A stretch of DNA of 64,000 bases from Mitsuokella sp. oral taxon 131 str. W9106 (lineage in GTDB: Bacteria; Bacillota; Negativicutes; Selenomonadales; Selenomonadaceae): the NCBI RefSeq assembly GCF_000469545.1, contig NZ_KI273058.1, positions 243,102-307,101 of the forward strand. Reading direction: 5' to 3'. The translations under genes and the position numbers were made by a program. Positions 11,466-44,206 of the stretch are shown here, piece by piece; the stretch's first letter is position 1; every line of letters starts with the position of its first letter. The notes beneath the pieces were generated by a model. That model was not told where the DNA came from and did not search any database. It worked only from the letters and a program-made list of their open reading frames with translations.

Positions 11466-12293
11466 GTGGCAGTAAAGAGTTTCAAACCATATTCTGCAGG
11501 GCGTCGCTTCATGACGGTCGCGTCGTTTGACGAAATTACGGCCGATAAGCCGGAAAAGTCGCTGACGGAAAGACTGAAGAAGCATGGCGGGCGCAATCAG
11601 CAGGGACGTCTGACGGTTCGCCACCAGGGCGGCGGGCATAAGCGCCTCTACCGCATCATCGATTTCAAGCGCAGGAAGGACGGCATCCCCGCTCGCGTCG
11701 CGACAATCGAGTACGATCCGAACCGCAGCGCACGCATTGCCCTCCTGAACTATGTGGACGGCGAGAAGCGCTACATCCTTGCGCCGAACGGACTGAAGGT
11801 TGGCGACATGGTCGAGTCCGGCCCCGAGGCGGACATCAAGGTCGGCAACGCGCTCCCCTTGAAGCACATCCCCGTCGGCACGACGATCCATAATGTCGAG
11901 CTCAAGATCGGCAAGGGCGCACAGCTCGTAAGAAGCGCCGGTGCATCCGCACAGCTCATGGCAAAGGAAGGCGATTACGCACTCCTGCGCATGCCGTCGG
12001 GCGAGCTCCGCAAGGTGCACATCAACTGCCGTGCCACGATCGGCACGGTAGGAAACCTCGAGCACGAGAACATCACGATCGGCAAGGCCGGCCGCAACCG
12101 TTGGCTCGGCGTTCGCCCGGAAAACCGCGGCGTCGCAATGAACCCGAACGACCATCCGCATGGCGGTGGCGAAGGCCGCAGCCCTGTCGGCCGCAAGCAT
12201 CCGGTCACGAAGTGGGGCAAGTGCGCCATGGGCGCCAAGACCCGCCGCAAGAAGGCATCCGACAAGCTCATCGTCAAGAGACGTACGAAATAA
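11466..12293 (+). CDS. rplB: 50S ribosomal protein L2
   Basis: Full-length L2, 275 residues, needed for subunit joining and peptidyl transfer. [15 protein letters not shown] near the N-terminus and the C-terminal [16 protein letters not shown] motif, with its essential His, are intact. It starts at GTG 11466 after AAGGAGG. Confidence 0.98.
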
Positions 12294-12341
12294 TGAAGCA
12301 AGCAGGCTGCGCTGGGCAGCCTGACGGAAGGAGGATACACT

Positions 12342-12623
12342 TTGTCAAGATCTGTTAAGAAGGGCCCTTTCGTTGCGGAAAGCCTGATGAAGAAGATTAC
12401 GGCACTCAACGAAGCAAATGATAAGAAGGTCATCAAGACCTGGTCGAGAAGTTCCACGATTTTCCCGGATTTTGTCGGTCATACGATTGCGGTGCACGAC
12501 GGACGCAAGCACGTCCCCGTCTACGTGACGGAGGACATGGTCGGACACAAGCTCGGCGAGTTCGCGCCGACGCGTACGTTCAAAGGCCATTCCGGCGAAG
12601 AGCGCAAGACTTCGCTGCGATAA
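12342..12623 (+). CDS. rpsS: 30S ribosomal protein S19
   Basis: Full-length S19, 93 residues, in the 30S head next to S13. [31 protein letters not shown] and the [13 protein letters not shown] segment are conserved. It starts at TTG 12342 behind AAGGAGG. A gap of 48 bases after rplB contains a small GC-rich hairpin (CAGGCTGCG / GGCAGCCTG, 12303-12323). Confidence 0.97.
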
Positions 12624-12644
12624 TTTTGCGAAAGGAGAATCCTT

Positions 12645-12980
12645 GTGGAATCAAAAGCAACTGCTAAATACGTTCGCATCGCTCCGCGCAAAGTTCGTAT
12701 CGTCATGGATCTTATCCGTGGCAAGAACATCGCAGACGCGTTCGCGATCCTGAAGTTCACGCCGAAGGCCGGCGCAGAAGTAGTCGAGAAGGTGCTCCGT
12801 TCGGCGGTCGCCAATGCGGAGAACAACTTCGACATGAACGTCGACAACCTCTACGTCAAGACGGCTTACACCGATCAGGGCCCGACGCTCAAGCGCATTC
12901 ACCCGCGTTCCCGTGGGCAGGCGTTCAAGATTTTGAAGCGCACGTCCCATGTCACGGTCATCGTTGACGAGAAGCACTGA
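12645..12980 (+). CDS. rplV: 50S ribosomal protein L22
   Basis: Full-length L22, 111 residues, lining the exit tunnel. [20 protein letters not shown] and the C-terminal [20 protein letters not shown] loop are clear. GTG 12645 is the start, behind AAAGGAGA. Short spacings on both sides place it in the S10 transcript. Confidence 0.97.
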
Positions 12981-12998
12981 GAATAGGAGGGGAACGGT

Positions 12999-33942: not shown

Positions 33943-35820
33943 CTACAACCTTTTGCTGTGCGTCGTAGGCGGATTCGGCGCTTTGGAGTTCGCGTTGTAG
34001 ACGGCAATGTCCGCCTGGGAGGTGAACTTTGTGACGTCGACGCGATGCGCGGCTTCGAGGAGCTCGGCCTTTTCCTTGAGCAGGTGCATCTCTTCGGTCA
34101 GACGCGCTTCAAGATTGGCGTTCTTTTCGTTTCGGATATGCGAAGCTTGCACATGGAGCGTATTGCCGTAGATTCTGCCCGTGGCGTCGTTCTTGAGATT
34201 CGAGGCGGTGATAGCGGCTTCTTCGTCGGCTTGCATGAGGCCACGATTTTCCATATCTGCCGTATGAATGGCGAGGCTTTTTCCGGAGATTTCTCCCGTG
34301 GCCGTTTGCGTAAGGTTTCCTGTCGTTGCAAGGGAAAGCATGCCGGCGGCTTCCAGCTTTCGCTGATTGTAGACGTTTCCCCGGAGATTTGCCGTGAGGT
34401 TTCTTCCCGCATGGAGATTGCCGAAGTTTTCAGTAGCAGCTTCATTGGAAAGGCCACCGGTATGGAGCGTGAGGCGCATATCCCGGTTGGCAGAGAGATT
34501 GCCGGCAAGGGGCATGGTGTTCGCTTCGATGGACAGGACTCTACCGCTTTGGACGGCACTGTTTTCAACGGTCAGGACATTTTGAGAAACGAGGGAAATA
34601 TCCCCGTTGCTCGCGATGCGGCTGTTTTGCGTGTGCATGTTTTCAGCGGATACGACGATGTCTTTGCCGCTGAGGAGTTGGGCGTTGTTGTTGTCAAATT
34701 CTTTTGCCGTAACAGTGAGCGTGCCGGCATCGTTTGTTTTGCCCGAGGGAGCGATGGCGGCGGCGAGCGTGCCGGTATTGGCGATGGCTGAGGCATGGAT
34801 TGCCGTATCTGCTCCGCCGATGATCTTGTCGCTGTTTTGCAAGGAGGAAGCCGTCAAGGTCGTGTCTTCCTTGCTGTAAACAGCGCCGCTGTTTTCTATC
34901 TCGTCTGCATGAATGTGGGTCGAGCCGTCCGTGTAGAGGTTGCCCGAGGTCTTGAGATTGCCGTTGACGTCGAGGGAGGTGGCTTCCGTGCTTGTGATCT
35001 GTCCTGCGAGGTTGACGCCGAGGCCTTTTTCCGTGCCGACAAGCTCGATGCGGTTCGCGTACATGCCGCCGATGGCGGCGAGATCGAGGGCGTACGCCAG
35101 CGTGTTTTCCCTGCCTTTTATGGGCGTGCTCGTTCCATCTGCATAGCGGATTTCGTTGGCTCCGGCAGCAAGTCTGGCGTTTTTCGCCCAGAGTCCGGCA
35201 TTGATTTCAATGGCGCGGGCATAGATTTCAGCGGAATCTGTGCTTTGGGCATTGAGACCGTTTCCTGTGATGGAGAGCTTGCCTCCTTCCACACGAATGG
35301 AGGCGAGATTGCCCGATGCATCCATCTCGGTGCGCCCGGTCGCAAGCGTCACCCTCGCCGTATTCAAAAAGCCGGCGCCGTCTGCCAGAATCCCGTTGGG
35401 ATTGGCGATGACGATGCCGGCCTTGTTTCCTGCGACCTCCAAAAAGCCGCGCAATTCAGACGGGTTGGCGCTTGTGACTTCGTTGACGATGATCCGCGCC
35501 GTGCCTGTGGCGAGATACGGATTCCCCTGCACGTATCCCGCAAGTTCGGTGGAGGCAAGGCCGTAGCTGTTGTTGAGAATGGCGCCGCGTTCGGGAACAT
35601 TGAAGAATTCATAGCGGTTGGCAGACACGCCGCCTGCCGTGGGCGTTGTGATCTGAACGAGGGGATTGCCGCTCGCCGTCTCTGTTACAAGGGGGCGTTC
35701 CTTGATCGGCGCATTGCTATCTGGGAGGATTTCCGTCGCAAAAGCAAGCGCAGGCTGTAAAGAGAATGCGCCCAAGGTAAGCCAGCTCGTGATCTTTCTT
35801 GCCAGTTCCTTCTTTTTCAC
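33943..35820 (-). CDS. TpsA/FhaB-like exoprotein, N-terminal part with TPS secretion domain
   Basis: A 625-residue frame starting at GTG 35820 behind AAGGAGG. The N-terminus has a basic start and a signal peptide (LTLGAFSLQPALAFA). The TPS domain follows, with ILNNSYG and VIANPNGILADGAGFLNT, the NPNGI motif used for recognition by TpsB. Adhesin repeats then begin. The frame ends early at 33943. A single missing base at 33990/33991 explains this: with one base added, the sense continues (YNAELQSAESAYDAQQKVVD) straight into the next frame. Together the two parts would make a protein of about 2290 residues. Confidence 0.88.
   Translation of the reverse strand: MKKKELARKITSWLTLGAFSLQPALAFATEILPDSNAPIKERPLVTETASGNPLVQITTPTAGGVSANRYEFFNVPERGAILNNSYGLASTELAGYVQGNPYLATGTARIIVNEVTSANPSELRGFLEVAGNKAGIVIANPNGILADGAGFLNTARVTLATGRTEMDASGNLASIRVEGGKLSITGNGLNAQSTDSAEIYARAIEINAGLWAKNARLAAGANEIRYADGTSTPIKGRENTLAYALDLAAIGGMYANRIELVGTEKGLGVNLAGQITSTEATSLDVNGNLKTSGNLYTDGSTHIHADEIENSGAVYSKEDTTLTASSLQNSDKIIGGADTAIHASAIANTGTLAAAIAPSGKTNDAGTLTVTAKEFDNNNAQLLSGKDIVVSAENMHTQNSRIASNGDISLVSQNVLTVENSAVQSGRVLSIEANTMPLAGNLSANRDMRLTLHTGGLSNEAATENFGNLHAGRNLTANLRGNVYNQRKLEAAGMLSLATTGNLTQTATGEISGKSLAIHTADMENRGLMQADEEAAITASNLKNDATGRIYGNTLHVQASHIRNEKNANLEARLTEEMHLLKEKAELLEAAHRVDVTKFTSQADIAVYNANSKAPNPPTTHSKRL
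33988..33993 (-). other. Frameshift site in tpsA
   Basis: The plus-strand sequence GAGTTCGCGTTG needs one extra C (GAGTTCCGCG) to join the two halves of tpsA in frame. It may be a real inactivating mutation, a phase change or an assembly error. Confidence 0.75.
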
Positions 35821-35929: not shown

Positions 35930-36108
35930 TAGACTTATGGTCTATGGAGTCCATTAGCGGATGTTCAGCTCTTTGATAGGAATTATCCGATATCTGGGCC
36001 TCATTGACCAATTTTTAGATTTCCGTGTCCAGTTTTTTTGGCTAGGGTGTGCAAAATCTCGACCTAGGGGGTGCATCGTTAGATTGTATCAAAATCAGGG
36101 GTAAGACG
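35930..36108. other. Non-coding scrap region upstream of tpsA
   Basis: No plausible gene is present. The base composition is mixed and there are several short stop-rich frames. Given the aldolase scrap and IS remnant next to it, this is probably debris from insertions; no parent is recognised. Confidence 0.4.
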
Positions 36109-36200
36109 GAATCGCTCATGCACTTCATGGCGTACAAAGCGCGTTCCGATGTGTACGCCATCGCCCATACACACTCGAAATTTGCGACGTCATTTTCGAT
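36109..36200 (+). pseudogene. Fragment of a class II aldolase gene
   Basis: About 90 bases match 42105-42196 inside the class II aldolase gene, with about nine in ten bases identical by eye. Translated, it gives ESLMHFMAYKARSDVYAIAH and HTHSKFATSFS, which includes the zinc-binding His pair region. Both ends are cut; the right end runs into the IS remnant. Confidence 0.8.
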
Positions 36201-36448: not shown

Positions 36449-39256
36449 TCAAGGTGCATCAGGATGGGACAGCAGCGTATCTTCCTGGATTAAAATCTGC
36501 AGGATATAACAGATTTCATCATCGTTGATGGAGGTGTCGAAGTGGCTTGCCAAGATATCGCCTGCAGCGCGGGCAGAGTCGAACAGTGTCTGATGACACT
36601 GGATAAAATGGCGGATATCGTCAAAATAGATGGCATCTTGATGCAGGCATCGGTCAAGCATGCAGCCGAGGTGTACGTAGAAATTGACTTCTTTTTCCGT
36701 ATCGGCGAATTTGACCTGCAGGCTTTGGGCGAACTCTTGGATATACTTCAGCGCGACTCTCGGATTGACGTAGGTCACGTAGCGATCGAGAAGCGCGCGC
36801 GCCTGTGCTTCAGCAGTAGGAGGCGGCAAGGATCTTTCTTTGCATGGCGCAGGAATGAAGTCGATGCTGCTGTCGATACGCTGCAAAAAGGTACGCTGGA
36901 ACTGTTCATCCAGCAACGTTCTGATCGAATAATATGGAATATCGAGTTGCGGATCCATGTTGCCAATGACGGCGAGAAAATGATAGCGTTTGGAAAGCGT
37001 TTCATAACGGCGTTTTATCTCGATGTAATGCTCGACGAGAATATCGATCTTGCCTTGCCGATCTTCTCCGAGGAGACCGAGGAGCAGCTTTTGCACCATA
37101 GGGGCTGCTCCTTTGCCTGTCATACAGAGCGCGAGGATGGCGGGGCGGCGCTTTTCGGAAGGAAGGCTTTCGAGGCGTATGGCGGTTTGGTAAATGGCGT
37201 CAAGATCGTTTGTTTTGTAGAGAACTTTTCGCAGAAGTTCCAGCGTAAGCGGCATGGATATATTCGGTATAACACGTGCCTCGATCCCGCATTCGCGCTG
37301 CAGGCGCCGTCCGAATTCGGTCAGTGAGCCCATGTCAACGAGGAGGAGAACGCCTTGCCCTTGATGCAGTGAGAGTGCCATGCTGCGAAACTTTTGATAC
37401 GTTTCGTCGACACTGACAGAAAGGGGCATATTGATTGCCTTCATCCACGTCGTATCGAGCAGCGTGTTCGCTACCTGTGCCATGCTCGACGCCGTCGTCT
37501 CGCCATGGCAGCATATCATGATGGCAATGCGCTCCTGCGCCTTGCTTTCCGCCTTGTTATTGGCGAGCAGGACGGCGAGAAAGCCGCATTCGTAGTCGCG
37601 GATCTCCACATGGAAGCGTTGACGAAGACGCTTGATCATTTCCTCCGCAATTTGAAATTCGCGGGAATATTTCTGCTTGATTTCGGCAATGGGGGGGATG
37701 GGCAGTTCCGGCATCTGATTGCTTCGCGACAAAAGTGCCTGCACGTGGAAACAGAAGCCGAAGATGAATTTTTCATGGAACTGTACGTTCAAATGGTGAC
37801 GGGCAAAGTCGATGAGAGAAACGGAAATATCGACGGTTTCGGCAGGAATGACCTTGTAGAGCGTGCGAAGATCCGCATCCGACCCGCGGATGCTTTTCGT
37901 CAGACTGCGGAAGTACGCTTCAATATCTTTTTGGAGCGTGTCGTGTATGATGTCGGCGCGAAGCCCCTGGCTGCGCAGGGTCAGTAATTTGTCCTGCAAG
38001 TTGTTGTAAAGATTCGTAGGCGGATCGAAAAGCGGAAGTGCAGAGGTCTGATTTGGAGAGATGATGATGGTTTCCGTGAACATCGAAAGATAGCGTTTCG
38101 TTTCCTTGTCAAGGTGAGCGAGGTGAAAGAGACGGTCTTTGATATCGCTCGTCAGGCTTGCGAAATCGACGTGAAGCGGCTGTCCATCCTGAATGCTTTG
38201 AAGAAAAGCATTGGCGCAAAGCAGCTTGATCTCGGAGCGAAGCTGCCCGACATTGCCCTTGTCAAATGGATAGACGGCAAGCGCCTTCATCGTCTCGGGG
38301 GCAATGAGAAGCGGCTGTTTCAGATTGACTGCTTCGATGCGAAAGAAGTATTCCAAAAGTTCGACGCGTTCGCTGATCGATTTTTGGGCGAGATTTGGCA
38401 GTTGGATGATGACGGGGATGCGCCGCATGAATGTTGCAAGCAGATTGTTTTCGGGATCCTCTGTCGTAGCGCAGACGATGAGGACTTCCGTCTTGCGCGG
38501 CTTTCCGCTTTCACCCAGTCGTGCAAAAATGCCGTGATCCATGAGGTAGAAGAGCATTTCCTGCCCTTCGGGCGGCAGGCGGTGAACTTCATCCAGGAAA
38601 AGGATGCCTCCGTTTGCTTTTTCAACGAGGCCTGCCTTTTCCGTATTTGCTCCCGTGAATGCATTCTTTGCATGACCGAAGAGCTGCGAAATCAAAAGCT
38701 GTGGATTGGTGTAGTAATCGGCACAGTTAAACGAAACAAAGGGATAATCCTGTGCCTGCTTTTGACGCACATGCGCACCGAATGCATGCATGGTTGCAGC
38801 GAACGTCGTCTTGCCGACGCCGCTCTCGCCGAGCAGCAGCGTGTGCAGGCCTTTGGGCGGATAGACGATGGCCGCTTTTGCTTGCCCGACTTGATGTTTC
38901 AGACTTCCGTCATTGCCGATCAGGTGCAGGAAAGGATCCTCTTCTTTGTGACGGCTCGCGTCCTGCAGATCGGCGAGCGTGTAGGAAGAAGCGAGCGGCA
39001 GATTGCATTCGCACGCAAATTGCGCGAGAATCTTATGTGGGACGAATCTGACTGGCCGCGTACGGATCTTGACGAGAAAGCCATCGCGGACGAGCTTGTT
39101 TAAAAGCGTGCTCGCATTGTTTCGGACAATGCCGAGCGCACGCTCGATTTCTTCCGCCGTAATGCCAGGAACTACGTCGTTGCGGAGCATGTCCCAGAAG
39201 GTATCGTACACGATATGGCTTTGGATGAACTGCAATAGGATCTCCGCTTTTTTCAT
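36449..39256 (-). CDS. LevR-type sigma-54 activator with PRD and PTS-like domains
   Basis: A 935-residue PTS-controlled enhancer-binding protein. Order: an N-terminal winged-helix region (1-75), then an AAA+ domain with Walker A GESGVGKT (143-150), AFTGA (199-203, the loop that contacts sigma-54) and Walker B GGILFLDE (216-223). Next come a PRD-like region (about 450-550), an EIIA-Man-like domain with CCHGETTASS (about 575), an EIIB-like domain with LCMTGKGAA (about 705) and a second PRD at the C-terminus. It is divergent from the PTS operon at 39564 and is its likely activator, controlled by phosphorylation. The 3' end lies 14 bases from the IS30 break, so the last residues could be altered. 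Confidence 0.93.
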   Translation of the reverse strand: MKKAEILLQFIQSHIVYDTFWDMLRNDVVPGITAEEIERALGIVRNNASTLLNKLVRDGFLVKIRTRPVRFVPHKILAQFACECNLPLASSYTLADLQDASRHKEEDPFLHLIGNDGSLKHQVGQAKAAIVYPPKGLHTLLLGESGVGKTTFAATMHAFGAHVRQKQAQDYPFVSFNCADYYTNPQLLISQLFGHAKNAFTGANTEKAGLVEKANGGILFLDEVHRLPPEGQEMLFYLMDHGIFARLGESGKPRKTEVLIVCATTEDPENNLLATFMRRIPVIIQLPNLAQKSISERVELLEYFFRIEAVNLKQPLLIAPETMKALAVYPFDKGNVGQLRSEIKLLCANAFLQSIQDGQPLHVDFASLTSDIKDRLFHLAHLDKETKRYLSMFTETIIISPNQTSALPLFDPPTNLYNNLQDKLLTLRSQGLRADIIHDTLQKDIEAYFRSLTKSIRGSDADLRTLYKVIPAETVDISVSLIDFARHHLNVQFHEKFIFGFCFHVQALLSRSNQMPELPIPPIAEIKQKYSREFQIAEEMIKRLRQRFHVEIRDYECGFLAVLLANNKAESKAQERIAIMICCHGETTASSMAQVANTLLDTTWMKAINMPLSVSVDETYQKFRSMALSLHQGQGVLLLVDMGSLTEFGRRLQRECGIEARVIPNISMPLTLELLRKVLYKTNDLDAIYQTAIRLESLPSEKRRPAILALCMTGKGAAPMVQKLLLGLLGEDRQGKIDILVEHYIEIKRRYETLSKRYHFLAVIGNMDPQLDIPYYSIRTLLDEQFQRTFLQRIDSSIDFIPAPCKERSLPPPTAEAQARALLDRYVTYVNPRVALKYIQEFAQSLQVKFADTEKEVNFYVHLGCMLDRCLHQDAIYFDDIRHFIQCHQTLFDSARAAGDILASHFDTSINDDEICYILQILIQEDTLLSHPDAP

Positions 39257-39336: not shown

Positions 39337-39384
39337 AAAATCTATGCACTTTTTAGCTTACATGCCAAAAAGTGCATAGATTTT
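39337..39384. promoter_or_regulatory. 18-bp perfect inverted repeat, likely activator site
   Basis: AAAATCTATGCACTTTTT (39337-39354) is the exact reverse complement of 39367-39384, around a 12-base centre. It lies between the divergent regulator and PTS operon, about 140-180 bases before the -24 box, the usual place for an upstream activator site. A terminator is unlikely between divergent genes. Confidence 0.65.
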
Positions 39385-39518: not shown

Positions 39519-39536
39519 TTGGCATGCATCTTGCAT
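39519..39536 (+). promoter_or_regulatory. Sigma-54 (-24/-12) promoter of the PTS operon
   Basis: TTGGCATGCATCTTGCAT fits the TGGCAC-N5-TTGCW consensus, with GG and GC at the required spacing. It lies 28 bases before the EIIA start. Its presence shows that translation cannot start at the longer in-frame position 39462. Confidence 0.88.
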
Positions 39537-39563: not shown

Positions 39564-40022
39564 ATGGAATCCATGTTGCATGATGAATTGATTTTTATGA
39601 AGTACCCGGCGAAGGAACGGGAAGTGCTGCTGAAAGAGCTGACGGGCATTCTGAAGGATAGGGGATATGTCAAGGACAGCTACTCGGAAGCCCTTTTGAC
39701 GCGTGAGCGCAAGTACCCGACAGGGCTGAATACGCCAGGCGTTCCACTCGCTATGCCGCATGCAGAAGCCCAGCATGTGAACAAGCCTGCGATCCTCGTC
39801 GCACGGCTGACCGAGCCAGTCCAGTTCAAGGAAATGGGAAACAGCGGCAGGGATGTAATGGCGAAATTCGTGTTCATGCTGGCGGTGCGTGACCCGGAAG
39901 GCCATCTCGCGATGCTCAGCAAGTTCATGTCTATTTTCTCACAGGAGAACCAGCTCAAGGAGCTCTACGCGATAGAAGATAAGCAAGCGCTTCGCGAAGA
40001 GCTTGAGAAGATTTTGGCATAA
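39564..40022 (+). CDS. PTS EIIA component (fructose/galactitol type)
   Basis: A 152-residue PTS EIIA domain of the fructose-mannitol superfamily, receiving phosphate from HPr. GVPLAMPHAEA contains the phosphorylated His, and ARLTEPVQFKEMG is typical of the GatA group. The ATG at 39564 follows AAAGGAGGGA and is fixed by the sigma-54 promoter just upstream. It is the first gene of a six-gene operon. The sugar cannot be inferred from this subunit. Confidence 0.9.
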   Translation: MESMLHDELIFMKYPAKEREVLLKELTGILKDRGYVKDSYSEALLTRERKYPTGLNTPGVPLAMPHAEAQHVNKPAILVARLTEPVQFKEMGNSGRDVMAKFVFMLAVRDPEGHLAMLSKFMSIFSQENQLKELYAIEDKQALREELEKILA

Positions 40023-40038
40023 GAAAGGAAGGATTGGG

Positions 40039-40320
40039 ATGAAGAAGATTTATGTGGCATGTGGCTCTGGCGTTGCAACGTCGCAGACCGTTGCGTCGAA
40101 GATCAGCAGCATGTGTGAGGACGAGTCGCTTGACGTATCGGTCGAAGCAGTCGATATCAAGTCTCTCGAAAGCATCATCGACGCGTGCGATATCTACGTT
40201 TCCATCGTATCGAATGAGGCGAATACGTTTGACAAGCCGACGGTGAGCGGCATTCCGTTCCTCACGGGGGTAGGGCTTGATACAGAGTGGGAGAAGCTGA
40301 AGGAGTTCATCGAGGCATGA
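40039..40320 (+). CDS. PTS EIIB component (galactitol type)
   Basis: A 93-residue EIIB that passes phosphate from EIIA to the sugar. IYVACGSGVATSQTVASKI holds the phosphocysteine and its P-loop. ATG 40039 follows AAAGGAAGG. Size and motif match the GatB group. It is 16 bases after EIIA. Confidence 0.9.
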   Translation: MKKIYVACGSGVATSQTVASKISSMCEDESLDVSVEAVDIKSLESIIDACDIYVSIVSNEANTFDKPTVSGIPFLTGVGLDTEWEKLKEFIEA

Positions 40321-40330
40321 ACGCAAAAAG

Positions 40331-40354
40331 GCCCTCGCATTGGGGTGTGAGGGC
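40331..40354 (+). other. Hairpin between EIIB and EIIC
   Basis: GCCCTC and GAGGGC pair around a 12-base loop in a 150-base gap. Two near-identical short repeats (CGTTGGCAGCC, CGTCGGCAGCC) follow. This may reduce read-through or protect the upstream mRNA; it lacks a T run. Confidence 0.45.
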
Positions 40355-40471
40355 TGGTCAGATGACCGTTGGCAGCCTCGCTGAAACCGTCGGCAGCCAA
40401 CTGCATTATACCATAGTTTCGGATGAAAATGAAAATGAAAGAAAATAACAGAATTGAGAGAGGTGTATCAA

Positions 40472-41827
40472 ATGCTGGATGCAGTCCATTACATCTTAGG
40501 TCTTGGCGCAGCGATTTTCCTGCCTGCCGTCATGATTGTCCTCGGCCTATGCATGGGCATGTCGCTGAAGAAGGCAATCCTTGCGGGCGTAACGCTCGGC
40601 ATCGCTTTTACCGGCATGAACGTGGTCTTGGGGTTCATGTTCGATGCGATCAGTCCTGCCGCGAAGGCTCTCGTGGAGAACACTGGGCTTGCGCTCACTG
40701 CCGTTGACGTCGGTTGGTCGCCGATTGCGGCGATCGCATGGGCCTGGCCGTATGCGCTCCTGCTCTTCCCGCTGCAAATCGGCATCAATCTGCTCATGCT
40801 TGCCCTGAAGTGGACGAATTGCCTGAACGTCGATCTGTGGAACGTATGGGGCAAGATTTTCGTCGCGGCAATGGTCATGGGATTGACGGGAAGTCTCATT
40901 TTGGGACTGATCGCGGCAGCGATTCAGATCATTTTCGAGCTCATCAGCGGCGACCTGATCCAAAAGCAGCTTTACCAAATCTGTAAGATTCCGGGGGTCA
41001 CATGCACTCACCCGATGATGCTGCAGGGGCCGTTGCTCGCGCTTGTCAATCGCGCACTCGATTTTGTTCCGGGACTTGGCTCTGTCAACATGGATGCCAA
41101 GGCACTCAAAAACAAGATTGGCATTTTCGGTGAGAACAGCGTCATGGGCTTCCTCATCGGCGCACTCATCGCCGTTATGGGCGGCTATGATCTTAAGGGA
41201 ATCCTAACGACGGCAATTCAAGTATCGACGGCACTCGTCCTCTTTCCCATGGTTGCAAAACTTTTCATGCAGGCGCTTGCACCGATTGCAGATGCGGCGG
41301 GTACATTCATGAAGAAACGTTTCCAAGGGCGCGCATTCTACATTGGGCTCGACTGGCCGTTTCTCGCAGGTTCGTCAGAAATCTGGGTTGCCGCGATCAT
41401 ACTCGTACCGTTTGAGCTGATTCTCGCCATTGTTCTCAGCAAGCTCGACATGAACAATGTCATTCCGCTTGCGTCCGTCATCAACATCGTCGTTACGGTC
41501 CCCGCACTCGTCGTCACGCGCGGCAACCTCATCCGCATGATTATCCTCTGTATTCTTGTGACGCCGATTTACCTTGTCGTCGCAACGAGCTTTGCGCCGA
41601 TCCTAACGGATATGGCGGCATCTACCGGCACGCTGCAGGTTGGATCAGGCCAGTTCATCACATGGATACAGCTCGAAGCACCGGAATTCCGCTGGGCGCT
41701 CGCGCATGCATTTAACGGAGAAATTGCCGGTATCGGCATTCTCGTCGTATTCTTTGTGCTCTTTGCTTGGTACTACAAGCGTATGCGTGCCGTGAATCGG
41801 GGGATCGACGAGATGGACAAGAAGTAA
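40472..41827 (+). CDS. PTS EIIC component (galactitol type)
   Basis: A 451-residue membrane channel with about ten hydrophobic segments, of the GatC family. Visible stretches include AIFLPAVMIVLGLCMGMSLK near the start and ENSVMGFLIGALIAVMGGYD in the middle. ATG 40472 is chosen, with AGAGAGG 5-10 bases before it. It would transport and phosphorylate a polyol or sugar together with the EIIA and EIIB before it. Confidence 0.9.
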   Translation: MLDAVHYILGLGAAIFLPAVMIVLGLCMGMSLKKAILAGVTLGIAFTGMNVVLGFMFDAISPAAKALVENTGLALTAVDVGWSPIAAIAWAWPYALLLFPLQIGINLLMLALKWTNCLNVDLWNVWGKIFVAAMVMGLTGSLILGLIAAAIQIIFELISGDLIQKQLYQICKIPGVTCTHPMMLQGPLLALVNRALDFVPGLGSVNMDAKALKNKIGIFGENSVMGFLIGALIAVMGGYDLKGILTTAIQVSTALVLFPMVAKLFMQALAPIADAAGTFMKKRFQGRAFYIGLDWPFLAGSSEIWVAAIILVPFELILAIVLSKLDMNNVIPLASVINIVVTVPALVVTRGNLIRMIILCILVTPIYLVVATSFAPILTDMAASTGTLQVGSGQFITWIQLEAPEFRWALAHAFNGEIAGIGILVVFFVLFAWYYKRMRAVNRGIDEMDKK

Positions 41828-41874
41828 ATCCTATATGAGAGCGATCGTTTTATATGATATAGGAGGATGGTTTT

Positions 41875-42549
41875 ATGTTGGAAGAACTCAAACAGCAGGT
41901 TGTAACATACGCGTTGACGGCAGATCGGTCAGGGCTTTGCAAGCATCGTTCAGGCAATTTCAGTGTGCGTGACGAGGAGACGGGACTCGTCTGCATCACG
42001 CCGACAGGCATGGATCGTGAGGAGCTCACGTATCATGACATCATCGTCATGGATATGGACGCAAAGGTTGTTGAGGCTGAGACTGGACATCGCCCGACGA
42101 GCGAATCGCTCATGCATCTCATGGCGTACAAAGCGCGTTCCGATGTGCACGCTGTCGCCCATACACACTCGAAATTTGCAACGTCATTTTCGATCTTGAA
42201 AAAGCCCATTCCCGCCATTGTCTACGAAATCGCGAATCTCGGCTGCAAGGAAGGATACATTCCCGTTGCAGCGTACGGGCGTCCCGGAACGCCGGCACTC
42301 GCGGAGAGCATCGTAGAACCGCTTTCCATTTCAGACGTCGCACTCATGGAAAGCCACGGCGTCATCGCGGTCGATGCCGACTTGAAGGAAGCGCTTCTCA
42401 AAGCGAGCTACGTCGAGGAGCTTGCGGAGGTTTACTATCGGACGCTCACGGTGCTCGGCGGAAAGGAGCCGCATGCGCTTGAAAATGCAGAGCTGCAGAA
42501 GTGGGCATACCCGAAGGAAATCCAGCTCTTGCCGGGCGAGACAAAGTAA
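41875..42549 (+). CDS. Class II aldolase/epimerase (AraD/FucA family)
   Basis: A 224-residue zinc-dependent aldolase. HRSGNFSVRD is the phosphate-binding loop, TGHRPTSESLMH supplies the catalytic Glu, and VAHTHSKFA and MESHGVI supply the three zinc His. Members cleave fuculose-, rhamnulose- or ribulose-type phosphates to DHAP plus an aldehyde, or epimerise them. In this operon it should act on the phosphorylated PTS substrate. ATG 41875 follows TAGGAGGA. A scrap of a close relative lies at 36109-36200. Confidence 0.92.
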   Translation: MLEELKQQVVTYALTADRSGLCKHRSGNFSVRDEETGLVCITPTGMDREELTYHDIIVMDMDAKVVEAETGHRPTSESLMHLMAYKARSDVHAVAHTHSKFATSFSILKKPIPAIVYEIANLGCKEGYIPVAAYGRPGTPALAESIVEPLSISDVALMESHGVIAVDADLKEALLKASYVEELAEVYYRTLTVLGGKEPHALENAELQKWAYPKEIQLLPGETK

Positions 42550-42561
42550 GGAGGAAGCGAT

Positions 42562-43560
42562 ATGAAAAAGCTGATCAATAAGCCGGCGGATTTTGCACGC
42601 GAAACGATTGAAGGAATTCTCGCGGCGCATGGGGATGAGCTGAAAGTGCTCGATGGAAGCTGGCACCGCGTCGTCCGCGCAGATGCGAAACAGGCAGGCA
42701 AGGTCGCCATTGCGACGGGCGGCGGGTCGGGGCACCTCCCGCTCTTCCTTGGCTACGTCGGCAAGGGGCTTGCCGATGGCGTCACGGTCGGCAATGTATT
42801 CGCTTCGCCGAGTGCGGAGGATATGTATGAGGTGGACAAGGCGATCCATGCGGGCGCGGGCGTTCTGCATCTCTTTGGCAACTACGGTGGTGACGTCATG
42901 AATTTCGGCATGGCGAAAGACCTCTGTGAGATGGACGACATCGAGGTCACCGAAGTGCTCGGCACGGATGACGTGGCGTCCGCACCAAAGGGCGAAGAAG
43001 CGAAGCGCCGCGGCGTTGCGGGACTGCTGTTTGCGTACAAGACGGCAGGCGCCGCCGCCGAGCAGATGATGCCGCTCCAGGAAGTCACGCGCATTGCGCA
43101 GAAGACGTGCGATAATACGCGTACAATGGGCATTGCCTTGACGCCGTGCATCGTGCCGGAGGCGGGAAAAGCGACGTTTTCCATTGGCGATGCGGAAATG
43201 GAAATCGGCATGGGCATTCACGGTGAGCCCGGTATCGAACGGACGGATTTGAAACCAATGGATGAAGTCGTAGACGTGATGCTCGGCAAGATCTTCTCCG
43301 ATATGGATTTCGGCAGAAAAGTAGCCGTCCTCGTGAACGGGCTCGGGGCAACGCCGCTCGAAGAGCTCTACATCGCATATCGCCGCATCTATGAAGTGCT
43401 CGGCAAGAAGGGGATCTCCATTCATCGCAGGTATATCGGCGAGTATGCGGGGTCTCTCGAGATGGCCGGCATGTCGATTTCGCTGCTGAATCTCGATGAT
43501 GAGCTCACGAAGCTGGTGGATGCACCATGCTGTTCCCCGTTCTTTGAGCAGACGCATTGA
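42562..43560 (+). CDS. dhaK: Dihydroxyacetone kinase subunit DhaK-like
   Basis: A 332-residue DhaK protein. GGGSGHLPLF is the N-terminal sugar-binding loop, and MGIHGEPG contains the His that binds the substrate carbonyl covalently. It forms the substrate-binding half of a kinase with the DhaL-like protein that follows. Relatives phosphorylate dihydroxyacetone or ketotetroses such as erythrulose. Start ATG 42562 follows AAGGAGGAAG, 12 bases after the aldolase. Confidence 0.93.
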   Translation: MKKLINKPADFARETIEGILAAHGDELKVLDGSWHRVVRADAKQAGKVAIATGGGSGHLPLFLGYVGKGLADGVTVGNVFASPSAEDMYEVDKAIHAGAGVLHLFGNYGGDVMNFGMAKDLCEMDDIEVTEVLGTDDVASAPKGEEAKRRGVAGLLFAYKTAGAAAEQMMPLQEVTRIAQKTCDNTRTMGIALTPCIVPEAGKATFSIGDAEMEIGMGIHGEPGIERTDLKPMDEVVDVMLGKIFSDMDFGRKVAVLVNGLGATPLEELYIAYRRIYEVLGKKGISIHRRYIGEYAGSLEMAGMSISLLNLDDELTKLVDAPCCSPFFEQTH

Positions 43561-43573
43561 GGAGGCCTTTTGG

Positions 43574-44206
43574 ATGGAAACGATTCGGAAAGAAGAGCTT
43601 ACGAAAATCTTTGACGCGGTGCTCGCCTCCATGGAGGCGGCAAAAGAAGAGCTTATCGAACTCGACGGTGCGATGGGCGATGGCGATCTGGGACTCACGA
43701 TGTGCAGTGGGTTTCAGGTGGTCACGGAAGAAATCCGGAAGCTGGACGAGACGGACATCGGCAAGCTTTTGCTGAAACTCGGCATGAAGATGAATGCGGC
43801 GGTCCCCTCGACCATGGGCACGCTCGTATCCACGTGCTTCGTCAAGGCAGCGCCAAAGGCAAAGGGCAAGACGGAAGTCAAGCTTGCCGATTTCATCGCA
43901 ATGGGAAAAGGAGCCATAGCAGGCGTCATGGAGCGCGGCAAGACAAAAGTCGGCGACAAGACGATGCTCGACGCGCTCGCACCGGCTGTCGATGCGCTCG
44001 AAGCGGCAAGCGTGGCAGGAAAGTCTATGAAAGACGCGTGGCAGGATGCGTTTGAGGCGGCGAAGGAAGGCGTGGAAAAGACGAAAACCATGCAGTCCGT
44101 TCATGGCCGTGCGGCTTACTACCGGGAAAAGTCAGTCGGGCGTCAAGACCCCGGTGCGACGGCGATTATGTATATCGTTCGCGGCATTGCAGAAGGAGTC
44201 CGATAA
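43574..44206 (+). CDS. dhaL: Dihydroxyacetone kinase subunit DhaL-like
   Basis: A 210-residue DhaL protein, the nucleotide-binding half. DGAMGDGDLGLTM provides the three Asp that hold Mg, and STMGTL and GRAAYYREKSVGRQDPGATA complete the ADP/ATP site. No DhaM-like phosphotransfer protein is visible in the operon, so phosphate may come from ATP, or from a DhaM elsewhere. ATG 43574 follows TTGAGGAGG, 13 bases after dhaK. It is the last gene of the operon. Confidence 0.92.
   Translation: METIRKEELTKIFDAVLASMEAAKEELIELDGAMGDGDLGLTMCSGFQVVTEEIRKLDETDIGKLLLKLGMKMNAAVPSTMGTLVSTCFVKAAPKAKGKTEVKLADFIAMGKGAIAGVMERGKTKVGDKTMLDALAPAVDALEAASVAGKSMKDAWQDAFEAAKEGVEKTKTMQSVHGRAAYYREKSVGRQDPGATAIMYIVRGIAEGVR

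Follow-up and report, generated by a model that had tools for sequence, protein, structure and literature searches.

How could a sugar enter catabolism through an operon that joins a transporter and an aldolase to a putative dihydroxyacetone kinase, with no dehydrogenase between them? The question arises in Mitsuokella sp. oral taxon 131 str. W9106, within the window analyzed here, a 64,000-nucleotide stretch of contig NZ_KI273058.1 (positions 243,102 to 307,101, forward strand). Six intact, consecutive genes on the plus strand of this window (39564-44206) encode components IIA, IIB, and IIC of a phosphotransferase system (PTS), a class II aldolase, and DhaK- and DhaL-like proteins (together, DhaKL), and all six products match Pfam families above the gathering scores (PTS_EIIA_2, PTS_IIB, EIIC-GAT, Aldolase_II, Dak1, Dak2). 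An earlier note on this DNA had listed these genes correctly. Its remark that neither a dehydrogenase nor DhaM accompanies them also holds: no dehydrogenase, of polyol phosphates or otherwise, is encoded inside the operon, and DhaM has no match in the 2.31-Mb genome, with the same model detecting it in three of 14 control genomes, including E. coli. The note passed over a LevR-like regulator, a sigma-54 promoter, an operator, and a second aldolase-DhaK-DhaL set.

A proposed PTS-fed route to dihydroxyacetone phosphate

We read the operon, with moderate confidence, as a PTS-fed variant of the dihydroxyacetone phosphate (DHAP) shunt. IIABC would import a ketose and phosphorylate it, presumably at C1, and the aldolase would cleave the resulting ketose-1-phosphate, with DHAP and a short aldehyde as products; given direct C1 phosphorylation followed by aldol cleavage, a dehydrogenase, a separate sugar kinase, and an isomerase would be unneeded. 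DhaKL would phosphorylate the free ketose and thereby add to the same pool of ketose-1-phosphate. Entry at the ketose level is firmer than any named substrate. The likeliest substrate class appears to be a 5-deoxypentulose or 5-modified pentulose of the 5-deoxyribulose type, because the aldolase groups with enzymes acting after MtnA. More tentatively, the PTS would be reserved for a 5-deoxypentulose, either 5-deoxyribulose or a 5-thio relative, and a ketose-1-kinase of the DhaK class would provide another point of entry; the module itself is found in Negativicutes, Lachnospiraceae, and Enterobacteriaceae plasmids.

The aldolase and its coupling to MtnA

Among PDB sequences, the operon aldolase matches 6BTD best (111 bits), with FucA 7x78 next (110 bits). 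The former is DrdA, a 5-deoxyribulose-1-phosphate aldolase (PMC6079011); taken alone, this top match proves little about the identity of the operon enzyme. At the residue level, position 131 (Phe to Pro) is the only one of 12 FucA positions compared that is not conserved in kind; Gly28, Asn29, Thr43, Gly44, Thr/Ser71, Ser72, Glu73, His92, His94, Tyr113, and His155 match both FucA and DrdA. The catalytic and phosphate-loop residues of these two enzymes are thus retained, as in an aldolase of the DHAP shunt. Two other assignments were rejected: L-ribulose-5-phosphate 4-epimerase (AraD), for which Asp is expected at the catalytic position where the operon aldolase has Glu like FucA and DrdA, and the FucA equivalog, whose model gives 126 bits against a cut-off of 400.

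A 55-row aldolase tree recovers a family of 46 (support 99/97) in which members encoded beside MtnA, with or without MtnK, are mixed with members encoded beside a PTS and DhaK. The PTS+DhaK label, carried by 13 rows of which one (L040_1981) is mislabelled, changes eight times on this tree; the pairing has therefore been gained or lost several times.

Gene content was surveyed across 189 genomes of the order, at E 1e-30 for the aldolase and E 1e-60 for MtnA. The aldolase is present in 50 and MtnA in 66, both occurring together in 48; MtnA thus accompanies 48/50 aldolase carriers and 18/139 non-carriers (one-sided Fisher p 3e-27, uncorrected for relatedness). Because MtnA makes ketose-1-phosphates, this tie supports such a substrate for the aldolase, and together with the retained catalytic residues it bears out the suggestion of the earlier note that direct cleavage of a ketose yields DHAP and an aldehyde, with no dehydrogenase taking part. 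In one genus (g5), the aldolase adjoins MtnA by coordinates in 10 of the 13 aldolase-bearing genomes (G023 being a partial match), while G030, G031, and G036 have MtnA without an adjoining aldolase, their sole aldolase being of the PTS type; G026 has both kinds. The adjacent copy has accordingly been lost in 3/4 genomes with a PTS-type copy and in 0/9 without (p 0.014, relatedness again uncorrected). G169 also has MtnA without an adjoining aldolase, and keeps an intact PTS-type aldolase among remnants of the operon. Since the PTS-type copy replaces the lost MtnA-adjacent one, the simplest reading is that it is able to do the MtnA-linked job. In G037, the PTS operon is present and MtnA is absent at E 1e-20; the PTS product there must therefore already be at the ketose level.

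The strain itself holds a second locus (L003/L002) with ribokinase, FucU, an ABC importer, MtnK, MtnA, LacI, aldolase, DhaK, and DhaL on one strand. The MtnK-type kinase and MtnA missing from the window operon are both found here, the former being assigned from its sequence and supported by an APH-family match and by 37% identity with an MTRK-family protein, that of L056.

DhaK and DhaL

In E. coli DhaK, the pocket residues are His56, His60, Lys104, Asp109, and the covalent His218. The operon DhaK keeps His56, Asp109, and His218, with Phe in place of His60 and Gly in place of Lys104, so that a dihydroxyacetone (DHA) pocket of the E. coli type is not found in it; judged by these residues, it belongs to a pocket class unlike that of the E. 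coli DHA kinase. Among 115 relatives, a sample biased in its proportions because it was drawn with the operon DhaK as query, Gly replaces Lys104 in 108 and Phe replaces His60 in 107, while Asp109 and His218 are invariant and His56 is present in 114, the remaining sequence having a gap there. (A duplicate of the window, L053, was dropped from the residue alignment, and pieces shorter than 250 aa from the pocket comparison.) The DhaK family thus splits into two pocket classes that current annotation merges. In DhaL, the GDGDLG and PSTMG motifs correspond to GDADHG and GGASG of the E. coli protein. Because DhaM is absent from the genome, DhaKL is presumably ATP-dependent.

Free ketose, the aldehyde, and DHA are all candidate substrates for DhaKL. 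A role as kinase of the free ketose seems most likely, but is the weakest step of the proposal. DhaKL adjoins MtnK/MtnA in five of 80 retrieved loci (L083, L088, L107, L119, and L129), and a wider context rule additionally flags MtnK near L134. In L083 (3691-5664) and L119 (461-2416), from Trueperaceae and Deinococcales genomes, the cluster comprises MtnK, MtnA, DhaKL, and a bifunctional aldolase/short-chain dehydrogenase, a different aldolase occupying the same slot. Because the aldehyde in these two loci may have its own outlet through the fused dehydrogenase, the sugar is favored over the aldehyde as the DhaKL substrate.

A neighborhood argument for an erythrulose pathway, drawn from two gene clusters close to related DhaKs, fell away when a family search identified the supposed RpiB/TIM isomerases as BtpA/SgcQ and YjbQ proteins, plus one without a match. 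DhaK-DhaL of the same pocket class also occurs with an ABC importer and an FGGY kinase in L102 and L077, a recurrent set to which the former adds BtpA/SgcQ- and YjbQ-family proteins.

The gene set in other genomes and on plasmids

A close IIC (at least 67%) is present in 8/189 genomes of the order, the window genome included, and IIA, IIB, aldolase, DhaK, and DhaL accompany it in all eight. Outside the class, in a Lachnospiraceae group, IIABC, aldolase, DhaK, and DhaL are found together in L095 (Anaerostipes) and L267; on our reading, a BglG-type regulator lies between IIC and aldolase in both, the supposed BglG-type protein of L095 matching no NCBIfam model at 1e-20. L087 carries the right half of the set before its contig ends on the left. 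On Enterobacteriaceae plasmids, the annotated order is IIA-IIB-IIC-BglG-aldolase-DhaK-DhaL-HPr plus a second DhaL-DhaK pair. Matches occur in 55 of 72,556 plasmid records, 38 of them carrying most of the set and 50 of the 55 typed as conjugative; in E. coli, 8/5,426 genomes match, every match being plasmid-borne. A gene set recurring across the order, a Lachnospiraceae group, and enterobacterial plasmids is not a chance assembly. Phylum-wide searches with IIC and DhaK (398 genomes each) gave no further full operon among the 20 stretches inspected, and the IIC relatives L215 and L216 (55-56%) have different neighbor genes.

A ninth IIC in the order is a second copy in G044, beside MtnK, MtnA, and aldolase and without IIA or IIB. 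Such an MtnK-MtnA-IIC-aldolase cluster is seen in L056 (6265-10770). The PTS operon lies on that contig too, at a distance of about 35 kb, and the IIC of the cluster may share the IIA and IIB of the operon, or may work as a plain permease. In the plasmid version L270, the whole arrangement sits between ilvA and ilvY-ilvC, and fabV (enoyl-ACP reductase; 11789-12982) separates the operon from the second DhaL-DhaK pair; the diverged version L271 has no fabV. In both, an HPr gene follows DhaL (L270 11389-11655; L271 15862-16128) and possibly encodes a private phosphoryl carrier.

Operon layout and regulation

The features of the operon and its control region are collected in Table 1. The term "galactitol type" used in the earlier note is right for membership in the Gat family; a galactitol transporter is not supported, IIC scoring 294 bits against a model cut-off of 542. 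The galactitol/tagatose pathway as a whole was likewise rejected, with scores under the cut-offs and its partner enzymes absent from the operon.

Table 1. Coordinates of the operon and its predicted control elements within the window.
Feature	Position	Strand	Basis
LevR/DagR-like sigma-54 activator, two PRD domains and an EIIA-Man domain, divergent from the operon	36449..39256	-	Pfam Sigma54_activat, PRD, EIIA-man
Candidate operator, 18-bp inverted repeat, core TATGCACT-N20-AGTGCATA	39337..39384		Half-sites 39343-39350 and 39371-39378; read from the sequence
Predicted sigma-54 -24/-12 promoter TGGCATGCATCTTGCA	39520..39535	+	Sequence match
PTS IIA	39564..40022	+	PTS_EIIA_2, 115 bits
PTS IIB, Gat type	40039..40320	+	PTS_IIB; galactitol IIB model 53 bits, cut-off 95
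PTS IIC, Gat family	40472..41827	+	EIIC-GAT, 217 bits
Probable class II FucA/DrdA-type ketose-1-phosphate aldolase	41875..42549	+	Aldolase_II; best PDB match 6BTD; catalytic residues kept
DhaK-like kinase subunit, GHLPLFLG/GNYxGD pocket class	42562..43560	+	Dak1, 394 bits; pocket comparison
DhaL-like nucleotide-binding subunit, GDGDLG and PSTMG motifs	43574..44206	+	Dak2, 159 bits

The regulator (935 aa) scores 509 bits against the NCBIfam DagR model, whose cut-off is 1400. A sigma-54 box with at most one mismatch precedes IIA in all five LevR-bearing loci (the window, L039, L041, L044, and L046), and four of these loci, all but L044, share half-sites with spacings of 45-46 and 26-28 bp. Relatives without an adjoining LevR gene (L036, L037, and L040) have no well-placed box, L037 offering a single one-mismatch match at -131. 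With a spacer of 6-36 allowed, the 2.31-Mb genome contains a single copy of the operator dyad; at fixed spacing, up to three mismatches give seven forward sites versus eight in a reversed control, all additional matches carrying three mismatches and none fewer. A hairpin between IIB and IIC folds barely better than shuffled sequences (z -1.76) and was not used as evidence.

Close to the regulator gene lies a minus-strand gene (33943-35820) whose product has a two-partner secretion (TPS) domain. Past the end of the regulator gene, an aldolase fragment of about 31 codons (36106-36198, plus strand; 80% identical to the operon aldolase in a translated match) is a remnant of duplication or rearrangement.

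Alternative explanations

One alternative, which we consider unlikely, is a bacterial counterpart of the fructolysis of animals: the PTS would deliver a ketohexose-1-phosphate, the aldolase would release DHAP and glyceraldehyde, and DhaKL would act as a triokinase to give glyceraldehyde-3-phosphate. Given that FucA-type aldolases prefer the 3R,4R configuration, and given the configurations of the two sugars, allulose or L-tagatose would be the candidates. Every gene would then have a non-redundant job. The human DhaKL homolog TKFC does phosphorylate glyceraldehyde (PMC6429413), and DrdA accepts various aldehydes with an inferred 3R,4R stereochemistry (PMC6079011). However, L083 and L119 keep DhaKL despite an aldolase-dehydrogenase fusion able to dispose of the aldehyde; the MtnK of the second locus suggests 5-deoxy sugars, which yield aldehydes lacking a hydroxyl group for a kinase to act on; and the distribution of the aldolase follows MtnA. 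DhaKL would also become non-redundant under a logic like that of tagatose-6-phosphate, in which the PTS would phosphorylate a distal carbon and DhaKL C1, so that the aldolase would cleave a ketose bisphosphate to give DHAP plus an aldehyde phosphate. In L216, a distant Gat-type PTS cluster, IIB and IIC do occur with a putative PfkB-type kinase and a different class II aldolase. This scheme nevertheless appears improbable, as the PTS-type aldolase stands in for an MtnA-linked copy whose substrate bears one phosphate. Moreover, no alignment column shows a conserved gain of Lys or Arg in 13 PTS-type versus 15 MtnA-linked aldolases, a comparison that left out the divergent L129_796 as well as L040_1981, the RhaD-like second aldolase of its locus, to which the context rule had given the wrong label; nothing thus points to a second phosphate pocket, which would be a weak argument against a bisphosphate substrate.

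The earlier note had proposed, as one option, that DHA is itself released on cleavage and converted by DhaKL to DHAP. The DhaK and DhaL family matches and the retention of His218, His56, and Asp109 fit this, but a route through C1 phosphorylation gives DHAP directly and not DHA, Gly and Phe stand in place of the E. coli Lys104 and His60, and the genome lacks DhaM; such a role now seems rather improbable. The other option in that note, a tetrulose as the DhaKL substrate, finds neither support nor contradiction in these results. As for a standard polyol pathway, with its dehydrogenase encoded elsewhere under the same control, Gat-type PTSs are mostly polyol transporters. The earlier note had itself named a co-regulated dehydrogenase as the finding that would overturn its interpretation, but the genome-wide search, which covers one operator and not expression, yielded none, the dyad being unique and its degenerate matches no more frequent than in the control. 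No dehydrogenase lies inside any of the eight operons of the order either, although the flanks of the other seven were not family-searched. We therefore regard this pathway as very improbable.

Several points weigh against a PTS-fed shunt. The C1 position of phosphorylation is presumed, and if the PTS does yield a ketose-1-phosphate, a ketose-1-kinase would be redundant; nor does the model explain the second DhaK and DhaL in the plasmid and Anaerostipes versions. The aldolase shares low identity with DrdA, and FucA and DrdA join the tree on long branches apart from the 46-row family. The co-occurrence tallies take no account of relatedness, and G037 and G178 have the aldolase without MtnA; the PTS operon might therefore serve another sugar. 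Finally, aldolase-MtnA loci of the order have no DhaKL nearby, except in the second locus of the window genome.

Should a PTS for a 5-deoxypentulose nonetheless operate, the debris of S-adenosylmethionine (SAM) chemistry would become a nutrient through one transport step and one cleavage. For 5-deoxy sugars arising as by-products of radical-SAM and polyamine chemistry, known salvage reaches the aldolase only after the action of a kinase (or phosphorylase) and of an isomerase; PTS entry at ketose-1-phosphate, if true, has no earlier counterpart in our literature search. It would also provide a function for genes annotated merely as "dihydroxyacetone kinase" or "class II aldolase", including those on clinical Enterobacteriaceae plasmids.

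Comparison with known systems

No title or abstract in the literature search assigns a set of PTS, aldolase, and DhaKL to a named sugar; PMC10101011 deals with E. coli evolved to use tagatose, and PMC6202814 with dendroketose synthesis. The galactitol/tagatose PTS pathway resembles the window operon in passing from a Gat-family IIABC to an aldolase. The operon differs from it in lacking both a dehydrogenase and a tagatose-6-phosphate kinase, in having a FucA/DrdA-type aldolase, and in scoring under the galactitol cut-offs. With DhaKLM, the operon DhaKL shares the DhaK and DhaL families, the covalent His, His56, and Asp109, but it has other pocket residues and GDGDLG/PSTMG in place of GDADHG/GGASG in DhaL, and neither operon nor genome encodes DhaM. 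Erythrulose kinases (LerK) are also homologs of DhaK/DhaL. LerK is an L-erythrulose 1-kinase (PMC10733421).

The closest correspondence is with the DHAP shunt (DrdK/MtnK, DrdI/MtnA, DrdA/Ald2), which has the aldolase type in common with the operon and likewise gives DHAP and a short aldehyde; in the window operon, the kinase and isomerase slots would be filled by the PTS and DhaKL. The word "DhaK" does not occur in PMC6079011, and the relevant passages of PMC12632272 name a putative permease and neither a PTS nor DhaKL. DrdK of B. thuringiensis is active on 5-deoxyribose and methylthioribose and inactive on 5-deoxyribulose (PMC6079011), leaving a place for either a PTS or a ketose kinase. Clusters of drd genes include transporters and a fucose mutarotase homolog (PMC6079011), and the window genome, beyond its PTS operon, also holds a shunt-like locus of this kind, with MtnK, MtnA, an ABC importer, and a FucU-like gene.

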